NCBI GenBank assembly: GCA_964023275.1
Contig: OZ029921.1
Span: 12,219,806-12,283,805 of the forward strand
Direction: 5' to 3'
From: Norana najaformis
Taxonomy: Eukaryota > Annelida > Clitellata > Crassiclitellata > Hormogastridae
Length of the DNA: 64,000 bases
The first letter of the stretch is position 1. Each line of letters opens with the position of its first letter. This document shows positions 6,061 through 63,345 of this stretch, piece by piece. The position numbers and the translations under genes are program-made. The notes beneath the pieces are model-generated. The model searched no databases. It had not been told where the DNA came from and was given only the letters and a program-made list of their open reading frames with translations.

Positions 6061-6638
6061 TATTTCCCATGTTGGCATGTAGATGTCAACTCCTTCTGAC
6101 AATTGACAGTCTCGGCAGTTCACTTGTGAAGATGGCCTTCACACAATCAAACACGAGAATGACCAAATCACAATCTGGCATTGAAGCTACAGATCGTAAT
6201 GCTTCTAAACTGACCTCACATCAGCTAGTTCGTATTTCATAGTTTTTAAGGTTTGTTGCTGAGCCTGATGTTGACCAAAAACATGTAGATTCGAGGATTA
6301 CACTGGATCACACGAAAATTTTTTTCGCCTGCTACTAGGCATATGTTATGTGTACTACACTAAATCGAATCTGCTGATTCCAAATCTGAAGTCAGATTTT
6401 GTGTAGCACGCCAGGATCTTAAGATATGCAGCATACATGCTAATAATTATGCAAACTCTTTACAGAACTAGTATTTCCTTATAACTGTGTAATTATGCAA
6501 ACTCAGAGTATTCATAACAAGAAACAAATGTTATTCTTTTATTACTTGAAATTAAAATATGTTTTAAAATGTAATATAAATATATGTATGTTACTCAGAT
6601 GAAAGCATACATTTCGAAATTTTGTCTCTAGCTTAACT

Positions 6639-8324
6639 CTATACGAGTTCAAAAGTGACTTTTGAACACTTGCTCTTGCGCTTGTGAGTGGCCGCTGTTG
6701 CCTGCTGCAGAAACCAGCAGTAATCGCCCATCATGTTGGAATTGCAGTGGCCCTGATATCTTGCTTCAAAGGTGGAGATGTCTTGATGGAATCTCTCTCC
6801 ATGCTCATCGCTTACATCACCCAAGTTTGGTGGGAAAAAATCCAGATGGGAATGTAAGAATTGTATTTTTAGTGACATCCGGCAGCCGAGTTGCTTATAT
6901 GCTGTTAGCATGTTGGTAACGAGTTCAGCATAGTTCTCAGCTCGGTGATTCCCAAGGAAGTTTTGCAGCACCAATGTACATGCATCCTAAGCGGCAAATT
7001 CCAGTGGGTTGAGCTTGGTTCTAAATACAGTATCACGCATTAGTTCGTGGATTTCTGGCCCTATAAAAATTCCAGCCTTCAGCTTAGCATCAGTTTTGAC
7101 GGCTCCAAATTTATCTCTCAGATACTGGAAGCCTTGTCCAGTACGATCCATTGCCACTACGAAATTCCTCATGAGGCCCAGTTTAATGTGAAGTGGTGGT
7201 AAGTACACTTTCAATGGATCAACCAATGGTTCGTGTTGCACGTTGTGCCGACCAACAATGTGCTCGGATCTAGGAGGCCACAGTTTCACTTTGTAATGGT
7301 TGCTGTCATCACGACTGTTCCACAAGCACAAAAAGCACATATGTTTTGTGTACCCCAGCTGTAGACCTAGAATAAGTGCTACCACTTTGAGGTCCGCACA
7401 GATGTTCCATTTGTGGTCTGAGTAGTTGATCACTTTCAAAATGAGTTTCGTTGAATCATATGTCTCTTTGAGGCCTACAGCGTGGGCTATAGGAACAGAC
7501 GGCTTTTCGTTACCATTGTGCACCAACACAGCTTTCAAGCTCACTTGGCTGGAATCTATGAACAGTCTCCACTGATCAGGAACGTATTTGCAACCTAAAT
7601 TCAGCATGAGACCGTTCACGTCAGTACAGAAACAGATATCATTTTCCAGTTTGTAATATGTAGCTAACTGTTTGTGACGATAACGGAAGTGTGATGTTGT
7701 GGTACCTTTTTGAAGCAAGTTCCACTCCCCTAGTCTGGAGGCTAACAGTTCAGATTTCTCCTCTGACAAAGATAGGTCCCTCACCAGATCATCTAACTCA
7801 CCTTGCCTTATCAAATGCGGCCTACCCTCTTCCAAATCTTGATCACTGGATTCATAAACAGTAACGTCATCTTTTGTATTACCATCAGAACTGTCCGTTT
7901 CATCAGCACCTGCAGCAGGCGGAAATGGTACTGGATTCTCTTCATCATGCGGCTCTGGCTTTAGAGCAGACTCGCAATCAGGATAAACGATTTTAGACTT
8001 ATTTTTCTTTGAAAATCCAGCAACTTTAGTAATGCAGAAATAACAGTCTGCATGATGATTTCTTGGCTCGCGCCACACCATAGGCACAGCAAACGGCATT
8101 GAATTCCTTTTGCCATTCAGCCACTGTGTAAGCCCAGAGTAGCACACGGTGCAGCAGACATGAGGTGCCCAACTTTTATCCTGATCTCCGATTTGACATC
8201 CAAAATAATACTTGTAAGCAATCATCACTCTCTTAGTTAACTTCTTGCGCTGGTCACAAAGAGTATATTTACCACAAACATAACAAAAATTGTCTGGATG
8301 GTTAACACAGCCTCGCCTATTCAT
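6639..8324 (-). CDS. Putative CACTA-like transposase (ZAD-like zinc finger + DDE), one internal stop
   Basis: Single-exon gene filling element A. Starting at Met 8324 (MNRRGCV, aligned with MASRGCV of copy B) it spans 561 codons before the final stop. One in-frame TAG at 6989-6987 replaces a Trp conserved in copy B (AAW/SAW), and the frame resumes at once, so this is a single nonsense change. N-terminus: FCYVCGKY...WAPHVCCTVC, a CxxC...CxxC module resembling ZAD/treble-clef fingers, then DCYFC. Core: FIDSS, CADLK, CFLC and GERFHQD, the likely D-D-C2C-E set. About half of residues match copy B by eye. Function as transposase is inferred from the TIRs and motif order; the family is usually labelled uncharacterised. 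Confidence 0.8.
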
Positions 8325-8394
8325 TTCAAAATTAAATCTCACACATTAGCTACAGCTATAGAAGAAAATTTCACCTTCGTTCTACGCAATCTCG

Positions 8395-8403
8395 CCTTAT
8401 ATA
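8395..8403 (-). promoter_or_regulatory. TATA box of CACTA-like gene A
   Basis: Minus strand TATATAAGG, 71 bp before the ATG at 8324 and inside the transposon. This spacing would give a 5' leader of about 40 bases. An AATAAA polyadenylation signal lies on the same strand at 6543-6538, about 100 bp after the stop. Together these describe a compact, intronless transcription unit. Confidence 0.55.
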
Positions 8404-9230
8404 CTGGTATTGATGCTGACGTCAGCTCGCTGACATGCCCAATCATGTCTAGCGGCTGCTGCAGGCTTGCTGTTAGGAATACTTCAGGCGACACTTGCAG
8501 GCATGCACGTATCACTGGCAGCAATCGTGGAGACACATACAACAGAATGTACAGACATAACCGAAAACGAGTCCTTACGTCATTACTTGAATGCATGCAT
8601 AACTTAAAATCTAGACGTGCTGGGCAGTTTCTGACTTCATATTCGGAATCAGCACATTTGAATCAATATAAGTCACATGCATTACTTTCAGTAGCAAAAT
8701 CGTTGTGATCCAGTGTTATACATCGCCTGAAGTCCATCACAACTCAGAGTCACTTGATACTCTGAATGTCAGTTCCACGCTAGCGAATTCTTACGGTCTA
8801 CTAGCAACTCTGTACGAATTTAATGAAGAACTGCACATTAAATCCACTTGTGAATCGTTCAACTGTCAAAGTGCTGTTGTTGTTACAGCTCAGAATGACC
8901 AGTTTCAGAATTGAGAGAGCTTCTCTACAAGAAAATGTAACTCGGTTGATGATCTCAGCTCAACTGAATATATTAATGTTACTGATAGCCACATACAGTG
9001 TGAAAACCTGTCTGCTTGACAGACAATTTCCAGTTGAAGATTGAGATCTGAACTCTTGCAGCTGGTTCCCTGCTTTTGCTGAATCCAGTGTACAGGGATT
9101 CTGCCATGCCCCATAGACTAGTATTCACTTCACTTCATCTCGTTTACTAATCCCAATTCAAAAAAGCAATACGTGTTACAAGCATATACAATTGATAGGG
9201 ATGCAAAAGGCATATCCAGAAGGAACAGAA

Positions 9231-9327
9231 GTTCCACTTACTTAGGGTAACCTGTTACTTAGTAGCAGTGAGATGGCTAAGTTCCACTTACTTAGGGTCA
9301 CCTGTTACTTAGTAGCAGTGAGATGGG
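9231..9327. repeat. Two-copy 50-bp tandem repeat
   Basis: GTTCCACTTACTTAGGGTAA... begins at 9231 and again at 9281. The two units differ at only a few positions. It contains an internal echo (cttacttagggt / gttacttagtag). No coding potential seen; 8716-9420 is otherwise unassigned. Confidence 0.85.
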
Positions 9328-9899
9328 TATTAACATAGCTATAAAACAACATGTCCTTTAAAATCAGTAAATGTCAAACAACAAAAAGAAAAAGACAAAT
9401 ATTCAACTTCAACTAAGCTGAATTGCCTTAGTAACTAAGGTAACATAGAAAACAAAAAAAATTAACTAACTATTGAATGCAAAGTTGCAAGAGATTTTTA
9501 AAAACTGTCGCATCTGCTTCTTAAATAGCTGCAAATTAGGCAGTGAACGTATACTCGCAGGGAGTGAGTTCCACAATGAGAGACTCGCACATTTAATTGC
9601 AAATAACCTTGTGTTCATACGGGCAAAGATGCTATAGTAGTTACCTTGGGAGCTGGTAAAATAGGAGTGGCAGTCAGTGCAATTCTTAAAATAGGTACTA
9701 AAGGCTGGAGGTAGTAATTTATGCTCGTACCTGTACATAAAGATGGATATTTGGAGCTTACTTATAGAGTCAAATTTTAAAATGTTAAAGTTTGAAAAGC
9801 AATGTTCAGTGTTCATACCAGGCAAATCCTTAGCAACAATTCTAATTGAACGTCGTTGCAAAACAGATAAACCTTTTAGTCAGGAATGATAGTTAGAGG

Positions 9900-10018
9900 T
9901 CCAAACAAGATTCTTCATCTGGTTCTCTGCCCTCAGGCACATTCAAACATCCAATGATGCCACACCTCTCAGTGCTGAGCCTCTTCTTTCAGCCTGATGT
10001 ATCCATCCAAACAAGATT
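9900..10018. mobile_element. 93-bp insertion flanked by 13-bp direct repeats
   Basis: TCCAAACAAGATT occurs at 9900-9912 and 10006-10018. In the surrounding LINE this encodes NLVW of SYCNLVW only once, so 9913-10005 is an insert and the 13-bp repeat its target duplication. The insert (cttcatctggttctctgccc...) has no A-tail, no terminal inverted repeat and no similarity that I recognise. A 13-bp duplication fits LINE-type insertion of a short RNA-derived piece. Confidence 0.65.
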
Positions 10019-10313
10019 ACAATATGATAAATAAAGGTAGATCAAAGAACAATGTAAGTTCAAGAGAACATATTGGGGCAGAGCAGAACGAACACGAAAC
10101 ATTATTCTTATGCTTTTGGCAGTTTTGTGTGATATATGAAATATATGGTTCTTTCATGTTAGTTGACTGTCAACATGGACATCAATAAATTTGCAAGAGT
10201 TCACTTGTAAAATTTGTTGTTTATTGATGCAGATAGTTATGTTAATAGTAGGTACTGGTTTTCCTATATGAACAAAATAGGATGTTTTTGGTTTTGCTTA
10301 AATTCAAGGATAA

Positions 10314-12622
10314 CACAGGTCTGCGATGAAATTTTTTTCTTCAAAGTAAATGGTGCTTCTTATACATTTTTACACGGTCATTTCTGGAAAAATATTGTAA
10401 AAATTCTAGCACATACAGTTTTGACACAAATTGGGATTTTTTGTTGGAAAGTTCAATTTTTCCGCAGAAATGCTATTTTACATTGAAAACACAATTACAA
10501 ATACATGCACATAATGAATAATATATTTTATTATAATGTAGTAATGAAGACACCCGAATTCTTGTTATGTTTTCATAAATGCGAAATTGAACCTCGGCCT
10601 GAAAGGGTTAAGACCGGTTTTTACATTAACGACGTGAAAGGATTAAGTCTGGTGTATACATTTATGACTGTCATGGCTTCAAGAGGATGTGTTAATTCTC
10701 CTGACAGGTTTTGTTATATCTGTGGCGAACTGTTAGTGAAAAAGCAAGAGAGAAAGGTCACGGACTTTGTTGAGAAAGTGTATTTTGCATACTTCGGTGT
10801 AAGGCTTGGAGACCAGGACAAGGCATGGGCCCCACATCGAGTTTGTTCCAGTTGTGTGGAAGGACTGCGCATGTGGTCCAAGGGTAAGGTGAAATCTTTT
10901 CGTTTCGGAGTGCCTATGATATGGAGGGAGCCCCGAAACCACAGCGATGACTGTTACTTTTGCTCGTGCAACATACAGGGATACAGCTTAAAAAACAAAG
11001 ACAAAATCTGCTACCCGAACCTGGAATCTGCACTGCGCCCTGTGTCTCATGGACCTGGCATTCCCATACCTTTGCCTCCAGAAAGCCTAAGCGATGTGAG
11101 TGGGCCATCGGGGAGTGAGTCAGATGGCAATTCTGATGAGGAATTTCCACACGACAGCAGTGAGCCCGAACTGTTTTCACAATCACAATTGAACGACTTG
11201 ATTCGAGATCTGGCTCTTTCGAAAGATTCCTCTCAGTTGCTAGGTTCTAGGCTCCAGGAGAAGAACTTGTTGACTCCTGGAACTTCTTTTAGTTGGTTTA
11301 GAAACCGAGAGAAAGACTACGTGCCTTACTTTTCTCAAGACGGTGAACTTGTTTACTGCTCCGATGTTACCGGTCTGATGCAAATGTTCAGAGTTCAGCA
11401 TGAGGCTCACGATTGGAGACTCTTCATTGACTCATCACAAAGAAGTCTAAAAGCTGTCCTTCTTCACAATGGCAACAAATACGCCTCTATACCGGTTGGA
11501 CATTCCGTTCATTTGAAAGAGAAGTATGACAATTTAGCCTTCATCCTGACCAAACTGAACTACAAGAAATACGAATGGACCATCTGTGGCGATCTTAAAG
11601 TGATCTCTATGATCCATGGTCAACAGGGCGGCTACACCAAGTACCCCTGTTTCCTCTGCAAATGGGATAGCCATGCTAAAGCCAAGCACTGGACTGAGAA
11701 GGTGTGGCCAAGCAGGACACTAAAAGTAGGAGAAAAGAACGTGCACTTCGAATCTTTGGTGGAGCCAAGAAAAGTACTCTTACCTCCACTTCACATCAAA
11801 CTTGGCATCATGAAGCAGTTTGTGAAAGCCCTTCCAAAAGATGGTGATACTTTCAAGTATCTTGCAAGCAAGTTTCCACGGTTGTCAGAAGAGAAGCTGA
11901 AAGAAGGGGTTTTAGTCGGTCCTGACATTCGAAAACTCATGAGCGACGAGATATTTGATACCAAAATGAAAGAAATTGAGAGATCGGCTTGGCAATCCTT
12001 TAAAGAAGTGGTAAAGAAGTTTCTTGGCAACTATAGAGACAGTGACTTCGAGAACATCGTAGGAAACATGATGAAGAACTTGAAAGCCTTGGGCTGCTCA
12101 ATGAGCTTGAAGCTCCACTTTTTGAACTCCCATCTAAGCTATTTCCCAGAAAATCTAGGTGCTGTCAGTAAAGAACAAGGAGAGAGATTCCACCAGGACA
12201 TAAAGGAAATGGAACGGAGGTATCAGGGTCAGTGGAACGTTAACATGATAGCAGACTACTGCTGGATGTTGCATAGGGAAGAACCGCAAGCAGTGTACAA
12301 GAGAAACAGTTCTAAAAGGAGCTTTGAAGGGAAGAAGAAAAGATATTATAAAGATTTCTGACTTCTCGGCACCTGTGACAAACATTTACAAATGAATGAA
12401 TGAAAAATCCAGCTGATTTCATTGTAAAAATTTTTAAGTTCTTTGTAAATAAGCGTTTTCCACTCTGCTAGGTCGTCCTGGATGTTTGTCTTCACTTGTG
12501 GAAAAAACCGTACGTGATAGAGGAAAAACCCGTGCATGTTTGAATTCAGCTAACTGAATACCAATGAAAACAAATAAAACGGTGAAGAAAAAAATTGGAA
12601 ACCATTAATATGCAGGCCTGTG
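10314..12622 (+). mobile_element. CACTA-like DNA transposon B, complete, TAA target duplication
   Basis: Left end CACAGGTCTGC at 10314; right end GCAGGCCTGTG finishing at 12622 is its inverse with one mismatch. Both arms also share the core AATTTTTTTCTTCA some 20-35 bases in. TAA occurs at 10311-10313 and 12623-12625 (3-bp target duplication). The element sits in the RT gene of a minus-strand LINE, and removing it restores that coding sequence. It holds one uninterrupted gene, 10673-12361, and an AATAAA at 12573-12578 just inside the right end. Confidence 0.92.
10673..12361 (+). CDS. Putative CACTA-like transposase, intact (562 aa)
   Basis: The open frame begins at 10505, but the Met at 10673 is preferred: it aligns with the start of copy A and opens the conserved block RGCVNSPDRFCYICG. 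Residues: C14/C17...H55, C58/C61 form a ZAD-like zinc module; H90, C94, C97 a second cluster (NHSDDCYFC); 137-166 is an acidic Ser-rich linker. D253 (WRLFIDSS), D307 (CGDLK), C326/C329 (CFLC) and E504 (GERFHQD) are in the order D, D, C2C, E seen in RNase H-fold transposases of the CMC group. D253-D307 spacing is 54. W440, HIKLG and DYCW are shared with copy A. Likely binds the TIRs and cuts and joins DNA in the nucleus; this role is inferred. No stop or frameshift, so possibly still functional. Confidence 0.85.
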   Translation: MASRGCVNSPDRFCYICGELLVKKQERKVTDFVEKVYFAYFGVRLGDQDKAWAPHRVCSSCVEGLRMWSKGKVKSFRFGVPMIWREPRNHSDDCYFCSCNIQGYSLKNKDKICYPNLESALRPVSHGPGIPIPLPPESLSDVSGPSGSESDGNSDEEFPHDSSEPELFSQSQLNDLIRDLALSKDSSQLLGSRLQEKNLLTPGTSFSWFRNREKDYVPYFSQDGELVYCSDVTGLMQMFRVQHEAHDWRLFIDSSQRSLKAVLLHNGNKYASIPVGHSVHLKEKYDNLAFILTKLNYKKYEWTICGDLKVISMIHGQQGGYTKYPCFLCKWDSHAKAKHWTEKVWPSRTLKVGEKNVHFESLVEPRKVLLPPLHIKLGIMKQFVKALPKDGDTFKYLASKFPRLSEEKLKEGVLVGPDIRKLMSDEIFDTKMKEIERSAWQSFKEVVKKFLGNYRDSDFENIVGNMMKNLKALGCSMSLKLHFLNSHLSYFPENLGAVSKEQGERFHQDIKEMERRYQGQWNVNMIADYCWMLHREEPQAVYKRNSSKRSFEGKKKRYYKDF

Positions 12623-13539
12623 TAATCTGTTTGACTGAAACAGTCGGCAACCAATAGTGGTTCATTATTAATAGACTCAATCAAAACATGAAGTGACTTA
12701 AAAGATGAAAAAACATTTGTGTCGTCCGTGAATAGTATAAAATGAAGTACTTTTGATGAAATATGGAGGTCATTTATACATAACAAGAATAGCAATGGGC
12801 CAAGAATTGAACCCTGTGGAACTCCACAATGAATCAATTTAATTTGGGAAAGTATACCATTACATAACACCTGTTGTCTGCTATCAAAATAGCTTCTGAA
12901 CCAACAGAGCGGAAGTCCTCGTATCCCATAAAATTCAAGCTTATTTAATAAGATCGAGTGATTCACCATTTCAAAGGCTTTAACCAAGTCCAGAAAGATT
13001 CCAATCGCATAATGATGATAATCGATGGACAGGGAGATTTTATCTTGAAGACCCAATAGTGCCATTGAGGTAGATTGACCAGGTTGGAAGCCAAATTGGT
13101 TTGATTGTAAAATACTCATTTTATCAATGTAATGATATAGGCGTTCGTACACCAAGTATTTAGCTCTTATTAAAGCCTATAATGCTGACACAAACTTATT
13201 TAATAATTATAACTTTACAAATGCTGTCTTTGATATATAATTAAATACATATACAAACACAATACCAAAGCATCAAACTAACTATATACACCCTACCTAA
13301 CTATTAAGCATAGATGCAATGCAAATATTAGCAGAATTACTACAGTCTAGAAGTGTTTCAAACATCACCAAGACATAGCTTTGAATTGGATACCAATATA
13401 TGCAATAAATCTGTCTTTCAGAAGGATTAAACTTCAGCTTCAGTATGTCTGTTATTTGAAAAACAATCCAAGAAGCCCAACACACAGCTGCGTCTTTTAA
13501 TCTACTAGGTAACTGCTATTCAGTTACAAAATCTCTCTA

Positions 13540-15217: not shown

Positions 15218-17314
15218 ATGAATCCCAGTCACACGCTTACAACAGACCCCGACAAGCCGCTGCCCAGTGACTTTCAAGCCATAGGGCCGGCATTTCGAGT
15301 GTTACAACTCAATGTTGAGGGTCTGTCGGCTGCCAAGCGCACACTCATCAGCAACCTAGCCCATCTTCACAACGCAGATGTCATATGCTTACAGGAGACT
15401 CACGTAGCAGACCTAACAGCGGGCAGATACTCCATCGTTGGCTACGATCTCCTCTCCACCTCCCCTGATCCAAAGTTCGGCCGAGCAACATACGTCCGCT
15501 CTGCCATATCCGACGCTTCAGCGGTTTCATCAGAACCATTCTGCGACGTCGTCCAAGTCGGAGACTTTACAATCGCAAACGTCTACAAGCCGCCGAGTGC
15601 TAAGTGGACGGCAAACCTGCCTCCCCCGTTGCAGCATCCGGCGCTGTATGTGGGTGACTTCAACAGCCACCACCCAGACTGGGGCTACAACGACATGAAC
15701 GAAGATGGTGAGCGCCTGGCGGAGTGGGCTGCATATAACGATCTCGTGTCAACCTTTGATGCTAAACAGCGCGGCACTTTCCACTCAGCGAGGTGGAGAA
15801 AGGACTACTCCCCGGACCTCTGCTGGGCTTCCACGGGTGGCGCCCACCGCCAAACCACAATGCAGACGATACTAGACGACTTCCCTAAAAGTCAACACAG
15901 ACCGTCATTGATCCACATTGGGCTGTTACTGCCAACTATCCATAGCGCGCCAAGGCTTCGTTGGAATTTCCGTAAGGCGGACTGGAATACGTTCTGCGAC
16001 AAGCTTGAAAGGAGCGTCATCACCATCCCTAACCGCTCCATCTCAATTCAAGAAGCATACGTTCGATTCCAGAAAGCCATTTTCCATGCAGCCAGAGCGT
16101 CAATCCCTCGTGGCTACAGACCGGTCTACACTCCATGCCTGGACAGCAAGTGCCAGGAACTACTCAAAGAGTATGAGGATTCTGGGGACCCTGACGTGGC
16201 CGACCAACTTATTGACACTCTTGATCTCAATAGACGCAAGGCATGGGAGCAAAGTACATCGTCCCTCAACTTCACCCGCTCCAGTCGGAAAAGCTGGAAC
16301 CTGATACGTCGCCTTGGGGCTGCGCAACGTCCAGTGGCCTCTGCCCGCCCTCAGGTCTCCCCAAATGCGGTCGCCAGCCACCTGATAAAGGTGGCGAAAG
16401 CTCCTCTGGAAAAGGAACAACAACGAAAGGTTAAAGACGAATGGCGGCAGTATTGTCGGCGACCACAACAGAGGAGCCCCTCCGGTGACTTTAAGGCTTT
16501 CGAGGTCTCCGAGCTTCAGACAGTTCTCCAGTCCATCAAGTCAGGCAGGGCTGCTGGATATGACAACATCCTCCCTGAGTTCTTGAAACATCTTGGACCG
16601 GTGGCGTCGTCCTGGCTCGCATCCCTTTATACAAGGGTAGTAACAGAGAGGAAGATACTACGAGAATGGCTACAGGCTAAGGTGATCGCCATCCCCAAGC
16701 CTGGCAAAGACCCACAAAATGCGGCCAGCTATCGTCCCATCTCGCTGCTCTCAGTATGCTTCAAGACACTTGAACGCTTAATCCTGCACAGGATTAGCCT
16801 CACCCTTGAAGATCATATTGTGGTGGAGCAAGCTGGCTTCAGGCGGGGCCGCTGCACATGTGACCAGGTCCTCGCCCTCACAACGTACATCGAAAACGGC
16901 TTCCAGAACAACCTCAAAACTGGAGCCGTTTTCCTGGACCTCACAGCAGCATTTGACACTGTTTGGCACACGGGCCTGCTGCTGAAGATCTCAAAGGCAT
17001 TCCCAATGTGGTTTACGGAGATGATAGTGGTCTTCCTCAGAAACAGACGCTTTCGGGTGCACCTGGGCGACAGGACCAGCTCGTGGAGAACCCAACTAAA
17101 TGGGCTCCCCCAGGGCTCGGTCTTATCACCATGCCTTTTTAACATCTATGTCAACGACCTCCCAACAACGCAATCTCGGAAATTTGCGTATGCTGATGAC
17201 ATTGCCCTGGGGGTGCAACGTAAAACTCTGGAGGAAGTTGAAGAGGTGCTGAACGCGGACGTTGAGCGGGGCTGGCGGGGTACTTTAAGATGTGGCGACT
17301 CCAGCCAAGTATAA
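15218..17314 (+). CDS. LINE protein: APE endonuclease and reverse transcriptase (main part)
   Basis: 698 residues. The APE-type endonuclease (about 25-230) shows LQLNVEGLS, VICLQETHV (catalytic Glu), YVGDFNSHHPDWGY (Asp, Asn) and DDFPKSQHRP with the terminal His region. The RT follows, with GRAAGYDNILPEFLK, IPKPGKDPQNAASYRPISLL, AGFRRGRCTCDQVLAL, FLDLTAAFDTVWH, LPQGSVLSPCLFNIY and the catalytic box FAYADDIAL. The frame then leaves the protein at a G-run (17268-17271) and ends at 17314; the next 307 residues are in the overlapping frame at 17290. Start Met 15218 is the first in frame and gives a 45-bp leader. Codes for target-primed reverse transcription of its own RNA. Confidence 0.88.
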   Translation: MNPSHTLTTDPDKPLPSDFQAIGPAFRVLQLNVEGLSAAKRTLISNLAHLHNADVICLQETHVADLTAGRYSIVGYDLLSTSPDPKFGRATYVRSAISDASAVSSEPFCDVVQVGDFTIANVYKPPSAKWTANLPPPLQHPALYVGDFNSHHPDWGYNDMNEDGERLAEWAAYNDLVSTFDAKQRGTFHSARWRKDYSPDLCWASTGGAHRQTTMQTILDDFPKSQHRPSLIHIGLLLPTIHSAPRLRWNFRKADWNTFCDKLERSVITIPNRSISIQEAYVRFQKAIFHAARASIPRGYRPVYTPCLDSKCQELLKEYEDSGDPDVADQLIDTLDLNRRKAWEQSTSSLNFTRSSRKSWNLIRRLGAAQRPVASARPQVSPNAVASHLIKVAKAPLEKEQQRKVKDEWRQYCRRPQQRSPSGDFKAFEVSELQTVLQSIKSGRAAGYDNILPEFLKHLGPVASSWLASLYTRVVTERKILREWLQAKVIAIPKPGKDPQNAASYRPISLLSVCFKTLERLILHRISLTLEDHIVVEQAGFRRGRCTCDQVLALTTYIENGFQNNLKTGAVFLDLTAAFDTVWHTGLLLKISKAFPMWFTEMIVVFLRNRRFRVHLGDRTSSWRTQLNGLPQGSVLSPCLFNIYVNDLPTTQSRKFAYADDIALGVQRKTLEEVEEVLNADVERGWRGTLRCGDSSQV

Positions 17315-18213
17315 CCAAGACTGTCTCCTGCGCCTTTCATCTTTACAATGCTCAGGCCAATCGAGAGCTGAAAATCTACCTCCACGGGCAGCACATCAGA
17401 CATGAGCCGCACCCGATATACCTGGGTGTGACCCTGGACAGGTCATTGCCTTATCACGAGCACATGAAGAAAACAGCGGCCAAGGTCGGTGCTCGTAACA
17501 ACCTTCTAAGCAAACTTGCCGGCTCAAGCTGGGGAGCCAATGCCCAGACTCTACGTAGTTCAGCACTGGCCCTGTGCTACTCAACAGCTGAGTATTGTGC
17601 ACCTGTCTGGGCTCGCTCAAGCCACACGCACCTGCTTGACGTGGAGCTGAACACATCAATGCGCATCATCTCCGGCACGCTTCGTCCCACCCCTCTGCCG
17701 TGGCTTCCGGTCCTATGTAACATCCCGCCACCACATCTCAGAAGACAGGAGGCGACGGCGAGACTACTCGCTAAAGTCCAACTGAATGACAGTCTCCCGC
17801 TGAACGCTGATATCGCGCTCCATCCAACTGTGCGTCTACCGTCGAGACGGCCTGTGTGGCTGAACTCACCAGTGGACATGACGGCTAATTCGGTCTGGAG
17901 TTCCGAGTGGTCTGCAACTGATGTTGTAAACCATTCCCTCGTGTCCGTGCCATCTGTCTGGCCCCCTGGTTTCAGCCTGCCACGTCGTCTCTGGTCTACT
18001 CTGAACCAATTCAGAACTGGTCAGGGCCGCTGTGCGGCGAATCAGGTTCGATGGAAGCAGGCTACCTCCCCTTTCTGCAGCTGTGGAGAAATCCAAACTA
18101 TGTCCCACATTGTTGATGTCTGTACAATAACTAGTTTCCCGGGCGGTCTATCCGCACTCCACGTTGCTGATGAGGCTGCTGCATGCTGGCTTAGCGCGAA
18201 CTGCATACGCTAA
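17290..18213 (+). CDS. LINE protein, C-terminal part in shifted frame
   Basis: Continuation of the same protein: MWRLQPSITKTVSCAFHL, PHPIYLGVTLDRSLPYHEHM, KVGARNNLLSKLAGSSWGAN, LCYSTAEYCAPVWARSSHTH, then a Cys/His cluster FCSCGEIQTMSHIVDVC near the C-terminus. Related LINE proteins run without a break from YADD through YFKMWRLQPS; here that join (ytLAGYFKMW in the second frame) is broken only by a net two-base change in the G-run at 17268-17271. It is therefore a one-frameshift copy, not a second gene. Confidence 0.85.
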   Translation: MWRLQPSITKTVSCAFHLYNAQANRELKIYLHGQHIRHEPHPIYLGVTLDRSLPYHEHMKKTAAKVGARNNLLSKLAGSSWGANAQTLRSSALALCYSTAEYCAPVWARSSHTHLLDVELNTSMRIISGTLRPTPLPWLPVLCNIPPPHLRRQEATARLLAKVQLNDSLPLNADIALHPTVRLPSRRPVWLNSPVDMTANSVWSSEWSATDVVNHSLVSVPSVWPPGFSLPRRLWSTLNQFRTGQGRCAANQVRWKQATSPFCSCGEIQTMSHIVDVCTITSFPGGLSALHVADEAAACWLSANCIR

Positions 18214-29559: not shown

Positions 29560-31770
29560 CACCATCCAATCATTACCCCATCTTCACACACCTTAACATC
29601 TTACCTACTCCATGTCCTGACCATATCATTTGTTCTTTTTGCCGCATCGATTCAATAAACGTTGAAGCCTTCATACAAGATATCTCCTGCTCAGACCTTG
29701 TTTTAAATCCACCTTCCTCCCTTGATGACCTTCTCTCTTCTAACAAACCACTCTTTCCATGATTCTTGGCAAACACGCTCATATTATTATCAAATCCTGC
29801 TGTCACTCTAACAATCCTTCATACAATTCCTATCTTCAGGCCTTCAAATCTTTCCGGCGATGCCTTGAACGTGCTTACAAATGCACTTGTGATCCTCAGC
29901 TTATCTCTGCCCTTTGATCTGCCACAAATAAATATCATCACCTTCTTGCTGCTGCTAAGAAGAGTTTTTACTCTTTGTTAGTTTGTTAGCTTGCTCCCGA
30001 TCCTCTAATCCTTGCCTTCCCTGGAAAACCATAAACCAACTCCTCCATTGGAACTCCAGCCCATTTCAAAATTCTCTTCTGTCTTCTTCAATAGCCGACT
30101 CGTTCACCTCTTTCTTTTCAAACAAATTTACTACTCTCCGTCTATCTCTTCAATATCTCCTTCCCTAGACCACCAATAACCCACCCGATGATGCTCCCTC
30201 CCCACTCATGACTCCCACCCTCCCCACTTCGATCCTTGTTATCTGTCTTTCAACCCACATCAGAGACTGAAATACAACATCTACTAAAATCACTTCCAAA
30301 TAAACAGTGCAAACTTGACCCTATACCCACCTCATTATTGAAAGACTGTGCATCTGGTCTTGATCCAGTCATTGCCAAAACAGTTAACCTCTCTTTGTCT
30401 ACTGGTAATTTCCCCCTCCTTTTCAAACACTCTTTTGTTACCCCACTTCTCAAGGAACCATCACTTAACAAAGAAATCCCTTAAAACTACCGACCTGTTT
30501 CTAACCCGTCTTTCATCTCCAAATTAACTGAACGGATTGTCATCTCTCAGATCAATGATTATCTAGTTTGCAACTCACTCCTTAACCCACACCAGTCTGG
30601 TTTCACTAAACACCACTCATTAAAGCCTCCTCTGTTGACCGTCATCTGTATGCTGATGACACCCAATTATTCATCTCTTTCTCTCCAAATTGTTTTAACG
30701 ATTCTGTAGATCATCTTCTGCGTTAAACAAATCTCCTCTTTGAGATATCTAATCTCTTGTGCCTGAACCCATCTAAAACTGAATTCATACTTATTGGCCT
30801 AAGTGACCAGCTCAAGAAAATTCCTGACCTCTTTATCTCCCTCAGCCTGGATTCTGCTTCCACCAACACATTTAATACTAACTCTCCTGTCTGCAATTTA
30901 GGTGTAATATTTGACCAAAACCTCTCTTTTCTGATCATATCACCCATCTTTCCCGTCACTGCTTCATGCATATCCATGACCTTCGCAGAATCTTCACATT
31001 ACTATGCCTGATTTCAAAACTGCATCTATCATCACTACATCCATAGTCCATGCAAAACTTGATTACTGTAATTCACTTTTCCTTTACATAGACACAACCC
31101 AGATAAACCGCCTTCAACCGATCCAGGATGCTCTCACTCGTGATGTCACCAAAACCCCAAGACACCATCACATCACTCCTGTTCTCAATCATGTCACTCA
31201 CTTAAAATACCTGAACGAATAGAGTACAAAGTCTTATCACTTATCTACAACACACTTCAATCTGCCCAACCCTCTTATCTTTGTCAGTTATTTACAATCC
31301 AACCACTCCATTCAACCCACTCCTCTTCTGCCCTAACACTTCTCTGCCCTCCCGTCACCTCATCCTTAAAATTTGGAAAACACTCCATAGCCATAGCTGC
31401 TCCACCACTCTGGAATAAACTCCCACCAGAATTATGACAATTATCTTATCCATCATACAAACTCACCATCACTTCACCTCTTGCAATTTCTGCACAGGTC
31501 TTACACTCAAAGCTGAAAACACTCCTGTTCCACAGATCCTATCCTGATTCCTCTCTTCTCCTTTATCTATCCTGCAGATCCAATTCCAAACACCACTCAT
31601 CTGTAGCCACCGTAGCCTGCCTGCCTGACTCTTAGATCTTGACCTAAAACTGAACCCTTCTTGCCCATCGATTTTGTCATGACTGTGCACCTGTGAATAG
31701 GCTGGTTCCCGCGACTTAGCTTTCACTGGTTACTGTAGAAATCTTGAGCTTACGATTTACGATTATGATT
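29560..31770 (+). mobile_element. L2-like LINE (linker, RT, C-terminus), internally deleted
   Basis: Frames give KTINQLLHWNSSPFQNSLLS, SETEIQHLLKSLPNKQCKLD, PIPTSLLKDCASGLDPVIAK and the NYRPVSN / NPHQSGFTKHHS region. After a deletion that removes the middle of the RT, it reads RHLYADDTQLFISFS, LCLNPSKTEFILIGLS, CNLGVIFDQNLSF and the C-terminal block. It ends near 31770 with tacgATTTACGATTATGATTTATGA. Broken by several frameshifts. A further L2-type 3' piece may lie at about 32170-32400 (LKHRLSLRLQFSN). Confidence 0.75.
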
Positions 31771-36454: not shown

Positions 36455-37510
36455 ACATTGGCCGTGTGCCAATTTTTCACAGGCACGGCAAATATAGGCC
36501 AAAAACCCAAAAATTATGGAAATTTTTATTTATTCTTTTTTGACATCCTTTTGTTCAAAGAATCAAAAATAACTGTTCCTTTTATGTGTTCATCTTACTG
36601 TTTCACTGAAGGACGTCTAGAAATCACGTTCAGTGTGATACTTTTTGAAACATAGTACTATACATGGTGCAGTACTATGTTATATGTAGCACTAGGCTCT
36701 GGGGGGCAAGTTTCACAAAAATAACGCGTTTCTTTGCGCTCTCTATGCTTCCTACAAGCAACACACTTCCTGCAAAGGTCCTGCTTCGGTTGCAGTAGCT
36801 GGGATAACATACAGATAGTGCTGTCCACTGAGTCCGAATAGGTCCGAAGCCTTGTGATGCTTGAAGGCCATTGATGGTGCGGCTCTCTGGTCGATCTTGG
36901 CTTCACAGCCCAGACTGAGTAATATTCTGGCGCCTAGTTCCTCCAAGCTTCTTGTTGAGAAGTTATACCCCTGCTACAGCCATGTAAATCATCTGTAGGA
37001 CCATCTTTCTGTACCATTTCAATAACTTTCTCGATGGAGCGTAACGAGGCTAAAAATTAGTCCATTTGGTTCATTCAGTCTTCGCCATATATTTGATATA
37101 CGGAGTCATATAGTGTCCAAAATAATCGTATATGCATTCGGTAGGTGGCAGCACTTGTCCAGTAGTTCTAATAAGCAGCAGGAAATAGCAATGAGACGTT
37201 GAACTGCCTAGAAATAGTTGATACCAGAGGGACATGTATACACGTCCATAAGGCTTAAAATTAGTTCATTTGGTACATTCAGTCTTCAGCATATATGTGA
37301 TATACCAGGCCCTAGAGAGTGTCCAAAATAATCGTATATGTATTCAGTAGGTGACAGAACATGTCCACTATTATTACCAAGCAGCAGGAAATATTACTGG
37401 GACGCTGAACTGACTAGAAAGAGTTGATACCTAAGCGACGTGTTTACACATGGTAGCGTCCCAGCTATACAGTTGTGCGACTTGTTAACATGTCCCTTGC
37501 GTCCAACGAG
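36455..37510 (-). mobile_element. Second piggyBac-like transposon, TTAA duplications, internal 204-bp tandem repeat
   Basis: TTAA at 36451-36454 and 37511-37514. Terminal bases CACATTGGCCG and, inverted, CTCGTTGGACG pair at 8 of 11. The minus strand encodes the transposase C-terminus: KWYRKMVLQMIYMAVA, then a Cys-rich domain CRKCVACRKHRERKETRYFC and ETCPPEPS (36870-36690), the classical piggyBac cross-brace finger. Sequence from 37048 is duplicated in tandem at 37252 (period 204). It differs from the 3.1 kb copy, which lacks the finger but keeps part of the core. Confidence 0.82.
37048..37455. repeat. Tandem duplication, period about 204 bp
   Basis: GGCTAAAAATTAGTCCATTT at 37048 and GGCTTAAAATTAGTTCATTT at 37252 start two units. 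They share GTGTCCAAAATAATCGTATA, CAGCAGGAAAT and GTTGATACC. The units differ at perhaps one base in seven, so the duplication is not recent. It lies within the piggyBac, in what should be the transposase core. Confidence 0.8.
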
Positions 37511-59015: not shown

Positions 59016-59675
59016 GGTAACAGGACAATAACCCCCGGACAATAACCCCCCGGACAATAACCTCCGGACAATAACCCCCCATGCAAAAACCCCCCGGACA
59101 ATAACCCCCTATACTGAAACAGTACATACAGTAAAGAGTAGACATGAAAGAATGACTAAACATCCAAGAACTAAATATTAGACAATTATTAGACAATTGG
59201 GCACAGAGTAGACATGAAAGACTTACCATACATCAAAAATTAATTATTAGACAATTATTAGACAACTGGGCACAGAGTAGACATGAAAGAATTACCATAC
59301 AACATGAAAGAGGTCAACTACTATACAACAGAAATGGTTTATGGAAAATACAAAGTTTAAAAATTTGATCTATTTCTGTCCATGATGGAATTTATAAAAT
59401 CTGATCAACTAAAAGATAATCTTAGTTTTGAAGGTTATGTATACGTAAAGCAGAAAAATTTAGCAAATGGTGTAGTGTTGTTTGAGTGCGAAAAGAGGCG
59501 TATATGTCTAATAAATTAATATATAAACTGTATGATTAATATACATTATTTGTATATTTATATAATTAATATATCAGTATAGGGGGTTACTGTCCGGGGA
59601 GTTTTTGCATGGGGGGTTATTGTCTCGGGGTTATTGTCCGGGGGGTTATTGTCCGGGGGTTATTGTCCTATAACC
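59016..59675. mobile_element. Fold-back DNA element with about 100-bp arms of a 15-bp motif
   Basis: The left arm 59016-59117 starts GGTAACAGGACAATAACCCC; the right arm 59574-59675, read inward, starts GGTTATAGGACAATAACCCC. Both arms then carry repeats of GGACAATAACCCCCC, one variant CATGCAAAAACCCCCC, and end TATACTGA. They pair with only a handful of mismatches over about 100 bp. GTTGAGT flanks both ends (59008-59014, 59676-59682), a 7-bp target duplication (possibly 8 with one mismatch). The centre is AT-rich with a 70-bp tandem repeat. No transposase, so non-autonomous. Confidence 0.88.
59135..59305. repeat. 70-bp tandem repeat, about 2.5 units, inside the fold-back element
   Basis: AGAGTAGACATGAAAGA starts units at 59135, 59205 and 59274. 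Each unit includes ATTAGACAATTATTAGACAA. Non-coding. Confidence 0.85.
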
Positions 59676-60689: not shown

Positions 60690-63345
60690 TTAGGGCGTAC
60701 CCCATAAGCGACGAATTTATAATTAAGATGGCCTGGAACGTGGGAACCCTCAGGAGAGGTCTAAAAAGATCATCAACGCAGAGAACAGCAATAAACATGT
60801 TCTGCCTGCAGGAGACTCGAAGGACAGGACAGGGAGCTTAGAACCGGGAGATGGATATTAGTTGTTGAATAATGAAGGTAAAGACAAGCACAGACCACAC
60901 AGCCATAGGAGCAGATATAAACAGACATGTTGAAATGGATGCTGCAGGTTATGAGGGAGTACATGGAGGACAAGGTTTTGGTCATAGAAATCAGGAGGGA
61001 GAAAGATTCCTAGACATGGCGCAGGGATTGGATTTGGCCATCGCAAATACATACTTCAAGAAAATAGAAGAGCATAGAAAAACATACCACAGTGGAAAAT
61101 GTGCAAGCCAGATCGATTACTTGTTGGTGAGACAGGAGGACACGAAAAACATAAGAGATTGCAAGGTGATACCAGGAGAAGGGGTAGTCATCCAGCATAC
61201 AGTCCTGGTCATGAATATACAAGTGCAGAATCGACACCAGAAAAGAAAGAAGATCAAACAGAAAGAACATAACAGAACATGGAAACTGAAGGGAGATAAA
61301 AGAGATGCCTTCAGACTGGAAGTACAAACACGGCTTGCTGATACAGAAGAAGTAACAAGAGATAAACTGAAAACAAGCATGACAGAGGCAGCAAAGAAGA
61401 TATGTGGCATGACAAGAGGTCAAAAGAGACAAGAACAAGGAACCTGGCAGTGGACGAAGGAGGCACATAAAGCGGTAAAGAATAAGAAGGCTGCCTTTAA
61501 AAAGTGGCAGGCAGATCGGCAAGATGCTGCTCTAAAAGCAACATACAAGATAATGTGTAAGGAAGCAAAGAAGGCTGTAGCAATAGCCAAAAGCAAGGCA
61601 TTACATCATGTATATGAAGAACTTAACACCAAAGAAGAAGAGGCAAAGATATATAAAATAGCAAAAGCAAGACAAAGAAGTAAGCAGGATAAGCAACCAG
61701 CAAATGTAATTAAAGATAAAGATGGTAAGATGCTAACTGAGGAGGATGCTATCAGAGCCAGATGGAAGACATAATTTGAAGAACTGCTAAATGAAGAAAA
61801 TTCAAGGGAGCCATTAAAAAAAGCCTTTCCCGTGGCAGGACCAGAAAATGAAATTACCCGCAAAGAGATTGAGATAGCAATTGAAAAGATGAAAAACAAC
61901 AAAGCACCAGGACCATCTGGAATGACTGCCGATAAGTGTAAAGCACTTGGCGTGATGGTATCGAATGGCTATACATATTTTAAACGACTTTACGAAATAG
62001 GAAAGGCTGCCACAAGATCTGAAGGAAAGTGAAAAAATAGCAATACATAAAGGAGATATACTGGACTGTAGTAACTACAGAGGAATTAAGCTGCTGGAAA
62101 TTGGACTGAAAGTGTATGAAAGGGTGATCGAAGGGCGCATCAGGGAACGGGTCAAGCTACATGATAATCAGTTTGGCTTTAGACCAGGTAGAGGCATAAT
62201 GGATGCAATATTCATACTGAGACAGGTGCAGGAGAAAATACTTGAAGGAAACAACAAGAGATATTGGACTTTTGTAGATTTGGAGAAGGCTTTTGATAGA
62301 GTACCAAGAGAGGTCATATATAAGAGTCTGAGGAAAAAGAGAGTATCAGAAAAAATATTGCAACTGGTGAAATCAATATACGAAGATGCATAGACTTCAG
62401 TGAGGAGTAATATAGGAAACACAGTAAAATTTGATATTCGAGTGGGTGTACATCAGGGATCCTGCTTGAGTCCTCTCCTGTTCGTCATAGTAATGGATGC
62501 CACATAGGAAAATGTGAGAAGAGAAGTATCATGGGATATGATGACCTCATAGTGGCAGACGATGCAGCGACAAAGATACAAGGGCGTTTCACTGATTGGC
62601 AGAAGGCACTGGAGAGCAAGGGTCTTAAAATAAATATCAATAAAACAGAGACCATGGTATGTTTCAAAATGGATGAGACACTTGTGGTCAAGGACATTGC
62701 AGAAAATGCAATGAAACAAGTAGAAACCTTTAAATACCTTGGGTCGATAATGAATGCTAAAGGAGAATGCAAACATGATGTTAAGAACAGGATTAAAGCA
62801 GCATGGCCAAAAATGGAAAGACCTATCGGGTGTATTATGCGATGTCAAAATGCCAGTTTAACTCAAAGGAAAAGTATACAAAACAATGATAAGATCAGTG
62901 ATGATATATGGAGCAAAAGCCTGGACATTGATGGAAGAGGAGGAGAAGCTTTTGGAGAGAACAGAAATGAGAATGCTCTGATGGATACCTGGAATCTCAC
63001 TGAAAGACAAGAAAAGGAATGAGTATATCAAACAGATATTGGGAGTGGCATGTATATCTGACAAGGTATGAGAAGTCAGGCTGAGATGGTATGGTCAAGT
63101 GATCAGCAGAGCGGAGGAAAGCTGCATTAAAAGAATTATGACAGCAGAGGTTTACGGATGCCACAGTTGGGGACGACAAAAAAAGAGATGGGGAGACATG
63201 ATTCAGCAAGACCTAAAGCTTCTCAGACTGAAGAAAGAATACACTGGAGATAGAAACAAATGGAAAAGAAGGATCCATGTGGCTGATCCCTCCTTAGGAG
63301 GTATTAATACCAGCCAGAAGGAAAGAATTTATACATACTAAAAAT
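60690..63345 (+). mobile_element. RTE-like LINE, most of one copy
   Basis: Order: endonuclease start (FIIKMAWNVGTLRRG, MFCLQETR), endonuclease middle (DYLLVRQEDTKNIRDCKVIP), a Lys/Glu-rich linker (61240-61770), and the pre-RT segment KEIEIAIEKMKNNKAPGPSG. RT: LHDNQFGFRPGRGIMDAIFI, FVDLEKAFDRVPREV, VHQGSCLSPLLFVIVMD. The catalytic box reads YDD (GYDDLIVADDA), one codon short of YADD. C-terminal pieces follow: LKININKTETMV, VETFKYLGSIMNAKGE and the GRQKKRWGDMIQQDL block. Several stops and frameshifts. Confidence 0.85.
60872..61774 (+). pseudogene. RTE-like LINE endonuclease C-terminus and linker
   Basis: 300 residues open: HTAIGADINRHVEMDAAGYE and GFGHRNQEGERFLDMAQGLD (endonuclease after the GDFN position, here GADIN), YHSGKCASQIDYLLVRQ, then a basic linker to QPANVIKDKDGKMLTEEDAI just before the RT. 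The start at 60872 is only the first Met after a break. Part of the broken LINE at 60690-63345. Confidence 0.8.

Follow-up and report, generated by a model that had tools for sequence, protein, structure and literature searches.

Two transposons with CAC ends, very probably of the Chapaev3 group, and their putative transposase

In a 64-kb stretch of DNA (the window, that is, the whole stretch analysed here) two genes for the same type of protein lie close together in opposite orientation, each between inverted repeats. This raises the question of what the protein does for the elements that carry it, and to which group of transposons these elements belong. The surrounding DNA looks like an animal genome. 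An earlier note had proposed that an uncharacterised protein family is the transposase of CACTA-like elements. From the anatomy of both elements there is good support for the protein as their putative transposase and for a place in the CACTA-Mirage-Chapaev (CMC) group. Among the members of that group, Chapaev3 fits better than CACTA in insertion site (ATWAT) and size.

The limits of the pair, 6301 and 12622, are as first described, and so are the inverted repeats starting with CAC and the 3-bp direct repeats. Element A spans 6301-8715 (2,415 bp, gene on the minus strand). It has a perfect 12-bp terminal inverted repeat (TIR), CACTGGATCACA at 6301-6312 on the plus strand and its partner at 8704-8715 on the minus strand, and is flanked by a TTA duplication at 6298-6300 and 8716-8718. 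Element B spans 10314-12622 (2,309 bp, plus strand), with the TIR CACAGGYCTGC, one mismatch in 11, at 10314-10324 (plus) and 12612-12622 (minus), and a TAA duplication at 10311-10313 and 12623-12625. Both elements thus have CAC...GTG termini and a 3-bp TWA duplication, and both are inserted between a 5' A and a 3' T: A-TTA...TTA-T for element A and A-TAA...TAA-T for element B.

Further inverted repeats lie inside the ends. In A, two arms of 83 nt at 6348-6430 (plus) and 8596-8678 (minus) are 73% complementary; in B, a 14-bp repeat is found as AATTTTTTTCTTCA at 10330-10343 (plus) and again at 12583-12596 (minus). A core, TTTTTTTC, had been described in the TIRs of both elements. It is present at the left end of each element and, as the inner 14-bp repeat, in the right end of B, but was not found in the 45 nt examined at the right end of A. 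The distance of 2 kb given before is approximate: the genes are about 2.3 kb apart and the elements 1.6 kb.

To see how often such structures occur by chance, the window was scanned for 11-bp ends with at most one mismatch, CAC/GTG termini, an identical 3-bp duplication and a length of 1-4 kb. The scan returned two candidates, exactly A and B, against a mean of 0.40 in 300 first-order Markov sequences. With 10-bp ends and the same lengths (1-4 kb) the two observed candidates compare with a Markov mean of 1.36, and in a looser scan (10 bp, 100-6000 bp) with a mean of 2.8 in 30 Markov sequences. As these values are near what is observed, CAC ends with any 3-bp duplication are not significant on their own. 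When A-TWA...TWA-T is added to the 11-bp scan there are still two candidates, against 0.0 in 300 Markov sequences: the ATWAT context is what distinguishes A and B from chance. No further end flanked by ATWAT was found in the window (12-bp ends, up to two mismatches), and an Rfam search of the window gave no match.

Next, the genes. In each element the transposase gene is the sole open reading frame (ORF) of at least 150 codons. The gene of B, at 10673-12361 on the plus strand, is open and encodes 562 amino acids; its frame is open from 10487, with in-frame ATGs also at 10505, 10514, 10544 and 10664. The frame of A, at 6640-8324 on the minus strand, has 561 codons, of which codon 446 is a stop (ORF 6987-8324 plus the remainder), so of the two protein genes described earlier only that of B is open. 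The proteins are of the same type, as had been claimed: tblastn gives 48% identity (E 2.8e-176, query residues 1-552) and a MAFFT alignment 50%. Divergence at the three codon positions is 0.40, 0.29 and 0.67. Among 549 aligned codons, 118 are identical, 158 differ synonymously and 273 have a changed residue. This pattern is one of apparent constraint at the protein level.

The predicted DDE catalytic region of B is encoded at 11429-12184 (plus strand) and holds D253, D307, C326/C329, LH at 373-374, H482/H487 and E504; the two aspartates, the glutamate, CFLC at 326-329 and GERFHQD are all at the positions first described. The motifs C(2)C, LH and H(4)H are all present in B. A has the same residues, including the three acidic ones, with the exception of a Q for H482, the first H of H(4)H. 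Ahead of this region, a zinc-like module in the N terminus of B (10712-10963, plus strand) has CxxC at residues 14-17, 58-61 and 94-97. Taken together these features suggest a mechanism in which each element encodes its own transposase of about 562 residues in one exon. The N-terminal module would bind the inverted repeats. An RNase H-type core formed by D253, D307 and E504, with a long insertion and a RAG1-like C(2)C/H(4)H site that may hold zinc, would cut at the CAC ends, and the cut ends would be joined to TWA inside ATWAT, giving the 3-bp duplication.

Both elements resemble Chapaev3 transposons, here compared by their published description. In Zhang et al. 2014 (PMC4079192), all Chapaev3 elements examined have a TWA duplication preceded by A and followed by T, and CAC/GTG ends and C(2)C-LH-H(4)H motifs are given as further traits; in all of these, save for the Q in the H(4)H of A, A and B are like Merrow, Garfield and Conan. 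According to the same text, Garfield has 2,289 bp and a protein of 78+478 aa (556 aa), and Merrow 2,451 bp and 78+484 aa, so that with A and B the elements are all about 2.3-2.45 kb and the proteins 556-562 aa. In contrast to A and B, with one exon, Merrow and Garfield have two exons each; one exon is apparent in most other Chapaev3 transposases described there. On this comparison with published descriptions, A and B very probably represent two separate Chapaev3 families of cut-and-paste DNA transposons in the CMC/CMCT group. They are two new families within a known group and no new class of element. The label "uncharacterised" does not hold as a claim of novelty: PMC4411706 cites a Repbase report on Chapaev3 dated 2008, and a study of the group followed in 2014 (PMC4079192).

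It is improbable, although less so than the other readings considered below, that A and B are animal CACTA (EnSpm) transposons proper, with a transposase in the EnSpm branch of CMC. The CAC...GTG ends and 3-bp duplications are EnSpm traits too, and A and B share with CACTA a C(2)C/H(3-4)H between the second D and the E. As reported in PMC12730594, the C(2)C and H(3-4)H in this place are common to EnSpm, Mirage, Chapaev, Transib and RAG1, and two C and three H are shared across the whole CMCT clade. LH and H(4)H alone can therefore not separate Chapaev3 from CACTA, being at least partly common to the clade, and what favours Chapaev3 is mainly the TWA-in-ATWAT site, seen in both elements, together with size. 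Against EnSpm, both insertions are of TWA between A and T, as in all the Chapaev3 elements examined in PMC4079192, and element size and coding capacity match those described for Chapaev3. For these reasons "CACTA-like" is better replaced by Chapaev3.

Pfam contains a CACTA transposase model. However, searches with the whole B protein and with two pieces of A matched no family up to E 10, and with four queries covering parts of the proteins the sole matches were FYVE, Zn_ribbon_12 and DUF234, none of which reached the cut-off, so that similarity to CACTA transposases was not seen in Pfam. At the N terminus, FYVE (E 0.078) and Zn_ribbon_12 (E 0.8) came up for B without reaching the cut-off, and A has no match. 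The module had been called ZAD-like; we find no support for this reading, as zf-AD is not among the Pfam matches of either protein. For Chapaev3 proteins a separate zinc domain, named Chapa, has been reported.

The lack of a matching Pfam model, together with a comparison to Chapaev3 made by description, also leaves some room for a separate, unnamed CMC clade, which would share the target preference of Chapaev3 while being no nearer to it than to Chapaev or Transib. We consider this very unlikely, since PMC4079192 describes Chapaev3 with the same insertion site, ends and set of motifs, with similar lengths and, for most transposases, with an apparent single exon. Equally doubtful is a CMC clade of its own ancestry that has Chapaev3-like target choice, links Chapaev3 with the RAG1/Transib core and is common under the name "uncharacterised protein".

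There is a resemblance to RAG1 and Transib in the order of the motifs: D, D, C2C, H4H, E. In B the second D is 19 residues from the first C, the two C are 3 apart and the two H 5 apart, which is identical to mouse RAG1 by the residue numbers in PMC4914335. The H-E spacing is 17 in B but 20 in RAG1, and the D-D spacing 54 against 108.

Transib and RAG-like elements make a 5-bp target duplication and Mirage a 2-bp one. With their 3-bp duplication, A and B do not fit Mirage. Nor do they fit Transib/RAG-like elements, by the duplication and by a profile search with the catalytic region, which had no match among PDB chains that include RAG1 entries. A PDB search with the N-terminal profile and a plain sequence search gave one chance match each (E 1.3 and E 2). 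As a test for a Chapa domain, the N-terminal module was compared with the RAG1 zinc domain; the match was not significant, with an hhalign probability of 1.7%. Local alignments to the same domain scored 40 for B and 45 for A, in a register where the first CxxC of the query pairs with the second CxxC of RAG1. These scores were reached by 29 (B) and 10 (A) of 1000 full shuffles; with C and H kept fixed, by 62 and 27 of 1000 when the query was shuffled, and by 107 and 31 of 1000 when RAG1 was.

Structure models are poor, and we base no inference on them. Mean pLDDT was 34.7 when AlphaFold, run on a two-row alignment, modelled the complete B protein, and 47.5 when it modelled the catalytic part alone. 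In the latter model helices at about residues 376-490 of B are mostly above 50, with some above 80, while the region with both D is below 50. Foldseek with this poor model returned 101 matches at E <= 10, none at E <= 0.001 (best E 1.5), and there was no transposase and no RAG1 among the best 50 of the 101. That the role of transposase is read from sequence, with models too poor to support the fold, is what speaks for a host or passenger gene acquired by the elements, an idea that is hardly credible given a sole ORF of at least 150 codons at the same place in each element, proteins about 50% diverged, and DDE and zinc motifs that follow the CMC order and are spaced partly as in RAG1.

A tblastn search of the window with B matched only A and B itself; one chance-level match is seen at 31493-31576 (E 0.92). 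Searches for related loci found no homologues in the collections of viral contigs and genome contigs, tblastn none in plasmids or phages, and megablast no match of element B in E. coli genomes. Two pattern scans of the viral contigs gave six loci (L001-L006). The best tblastn match, in a search of these six loci only, is one of 31 residues at L002 (E 0.002). We read it as chance: it sits in an ORF of 85 codons that contains the very motif searched for, the other matches at this locus have E >= 6, and the frame is stopped on both sides of the best match.

If there are many such "uncharacterised" animal proteins, as the earlier note supposed, they should be renamed as Chapaev3 transposases instead of being taken for host genes. 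That Pfam has no model matching B above the cut-off may be why such proteins remain unnamed.

Finally, we ask whether the elements can still move. A is a relic, unless another transposase still moves its ends. B is a candidate working copy that may be mobile at present. It interrupts a LINE reverse-transcriptase gene: an ORF on the minus strand at 12550-13119 (RVT_1, E 1.3e-19) has its last codons inside element B. When the flanks of B are joined with one TAA, the split reverse-transcriptase motif SNRLSLNLSKTKNILF is restored across the site, indicating that B is a true insertion into the LINE. A search of the rest of the window for paralogous empty sites, made with the joined flanks of A and of B, returned none that crosses the insertion point; for B it is the restored motif that carries the argument for insertion. 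Since its frame is open, its ends are clear and its empty site can be read, B would be a reasonable choice for an excision assay. Near the site of B the LINE frame is shifted once, upstream of the join.

Two complete elements are present in 6301-12622, and their ends, duplications and target context can be observed directly. Element A (6301-8715, 2,415 bp, gene on the minus strand) ends in a terminal inverted repeat of 12 bp without mismatch, is flanked by a duplicated TTA, and has an additional 83-nt subterminal inverted repeat that is 73% complementary. In element B (10314-12622, 2,309 bp, plus strand) the terminal inverted repeat is 11 bp long and contains one mismatch; the duplication is TAA, and a perfect inner 14-bp inverted repeat contains TTTTTTTC. 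The interval between the elements contains a nearly exact 50-bp tandem duplication (9229-9326, 97% matches).

A scan for CAC...GTG ends of 11 bp with no more than one mismatch, the same 3 bp duplicated on both sides and a length of 1-4 kb gives 2 candidates in the window, against a mean of 0.40 per sequence in 300 first-order Markov sequences. If the duplication must also be TWA framed by A (5') and T (3'), that is an ATWAT site, the Markov mean is 0.0 (n=300) and both real candidates have the pattern, although both insertion sites had already been seen before it was applied. The pattern is nevertheless an outside criterion, not fitted to the window, because it is taken from the published description of Chapaev3 elements (PMC4079192). 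With 10-bp ends the scan finds 2 against a mean of 1.36 (1-4 kb, 300 sequences), or 2, again A and B, against 2.8 (100-6000 bp, 30 sequences). These looser scans are not significant without the flank pattern; when it is added, both controls drop to 0.0.

For B the insertion itself is directly visible. To its right lies a LINE reverse-transcriptase ORF on the minus strand (RVT_1, E 1.3e-19), and once the flanks of B are joined through a single TAA, the site again reads SNRLSLNLSKTKNILF, a motif whose form N.L..N..KT occurs at three further places in the window. This LINE carries one more shift of frame a short way upstream of the join, which means that it was already broken or has decayed. No other copy spanning the site is found in the window for the joined flanks of either element; for A the duplication is thus the sole evidence of insertion.

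In B a frame of 562 codons is open from 10673; it is open already from 10487, and four more in-frame ATGs lie upstream of 10673. The frame of A has 561 codons and a single in-frame stop, at codon 446. At 48-50% protein identity, A and B belong to two separate families rather than being recent copies of a single one. By codon position they diverge by 0.40, 0.29 and 0.67, the pattern of a coding sequence conserved in its protein. The motif residues of B are D253, D307, C326/C329, LH373-374, H482/H487 and E504, and A retains every one except H482, which is Q. In its present state A cannot yield the full protein; B may still be active.

PMC12730594 ranks Chapaev3 as a sublineage of Chapaev and groups it in one clade with EnSpm/CACTA, Mirage, Transib and RAG1, the C and H motifs being common to all of them. 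These motifs consequently place the protein in the clade. Within it, what speaks for Chapaev3 is the TWA duplication in an ATWAT site together with the element size. According to Zhang et al. (2014, PMC4079192), Chapaev3 transposons end in CAC/GTG, every one examined had a TWA duplication lying between A and T, and their motifs are C(2)C, LH and H(4)H; Garfield has 2,289 bp and 556 aa, Merrow 2,451 bp and 78+484 aa, and most other Chapaev3 transposases apparently have one exon. Compared with this published description, B agrees on every testable point, and A agrees except for the stop and one H. The earlier note called both elements CACTA-like, which holds at the level of the CACTA-Mirage-Chapaev group, but as a name Chapaev3 is better. 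Two Chapaev3 families are also listed in a blowfly (PMC3630058).

Some spacings in B are the same as in mouse RAG1 by residue numbers (PMC4914335): 19 from the second D to the first C, 3 between the C residues and 5 between the H residues. Others differ, with H-E 17 in B and 20 in RAG1, and D-D 54 and 108.

Chapaev3 is described as carrying a zinc-binding Chapa domain in PMC4411706, which cites a 2008 Repbase report on the group; the putative N-terminal zinc module gave no significant match when a Chapa reading was tried by comparison with the RAG1 zinc domain. Pfam gives no match for the whole proteins and none above cut-offs for parts. Among PDB sequences, the B protein has one match only, at chance level (E 2), the N-terminal profile one chance match (E 1.3) and the catalytic profile none. 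Two AlphaFold models were both poor, and a Foldseek search with such a model gave nothing of use. Searches of viral contigs, prokaryote genomes, plasmids and phages gave no homologue of the protein, as expected for an animal element.

The mechanism of A and B is very probably cut-and-paste. By analogy with the family, a predicted DDE transposase would bind the element's inverted repeats through its putative N-terminal zinc module, cut at the CAC ends and insert at ATWAT with a 3-bp stagger. The group is known and the two families are new. No paper was found for the protein motif GERFHQD in a search mostly without subscription journals, which says little on publication of these families.

The window has the look of animal DNA, and LINE remnants with reverse-transcriptase ORFs are abundant in it. 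At 15218-18213, one LINE ORF encodes endonuclease and reverse-transcriptase domains (15218-17314), and its end overlaps an ORF for which Pfam gives no match (17290-18213). Probable remnants of another LINE lie at 60872-63022, with a 300-aa ORF that matches nothing in Pfam and a sub-cut-off reverse-transcriptase match (62531-63019). A 206-bp tandem repeat is present in two copies at 37047-37449 (81% matches). Finally, 59023-59668 (646 bp) has tandem arrays of GGACAATAACCCCC at its left end, the reverse complement GGGGGTTATTGTCC at its right and an internal tandem repeat of 69 bp; it resembles a DNA transposon of the foldback type or a miniature non-autonomous one.
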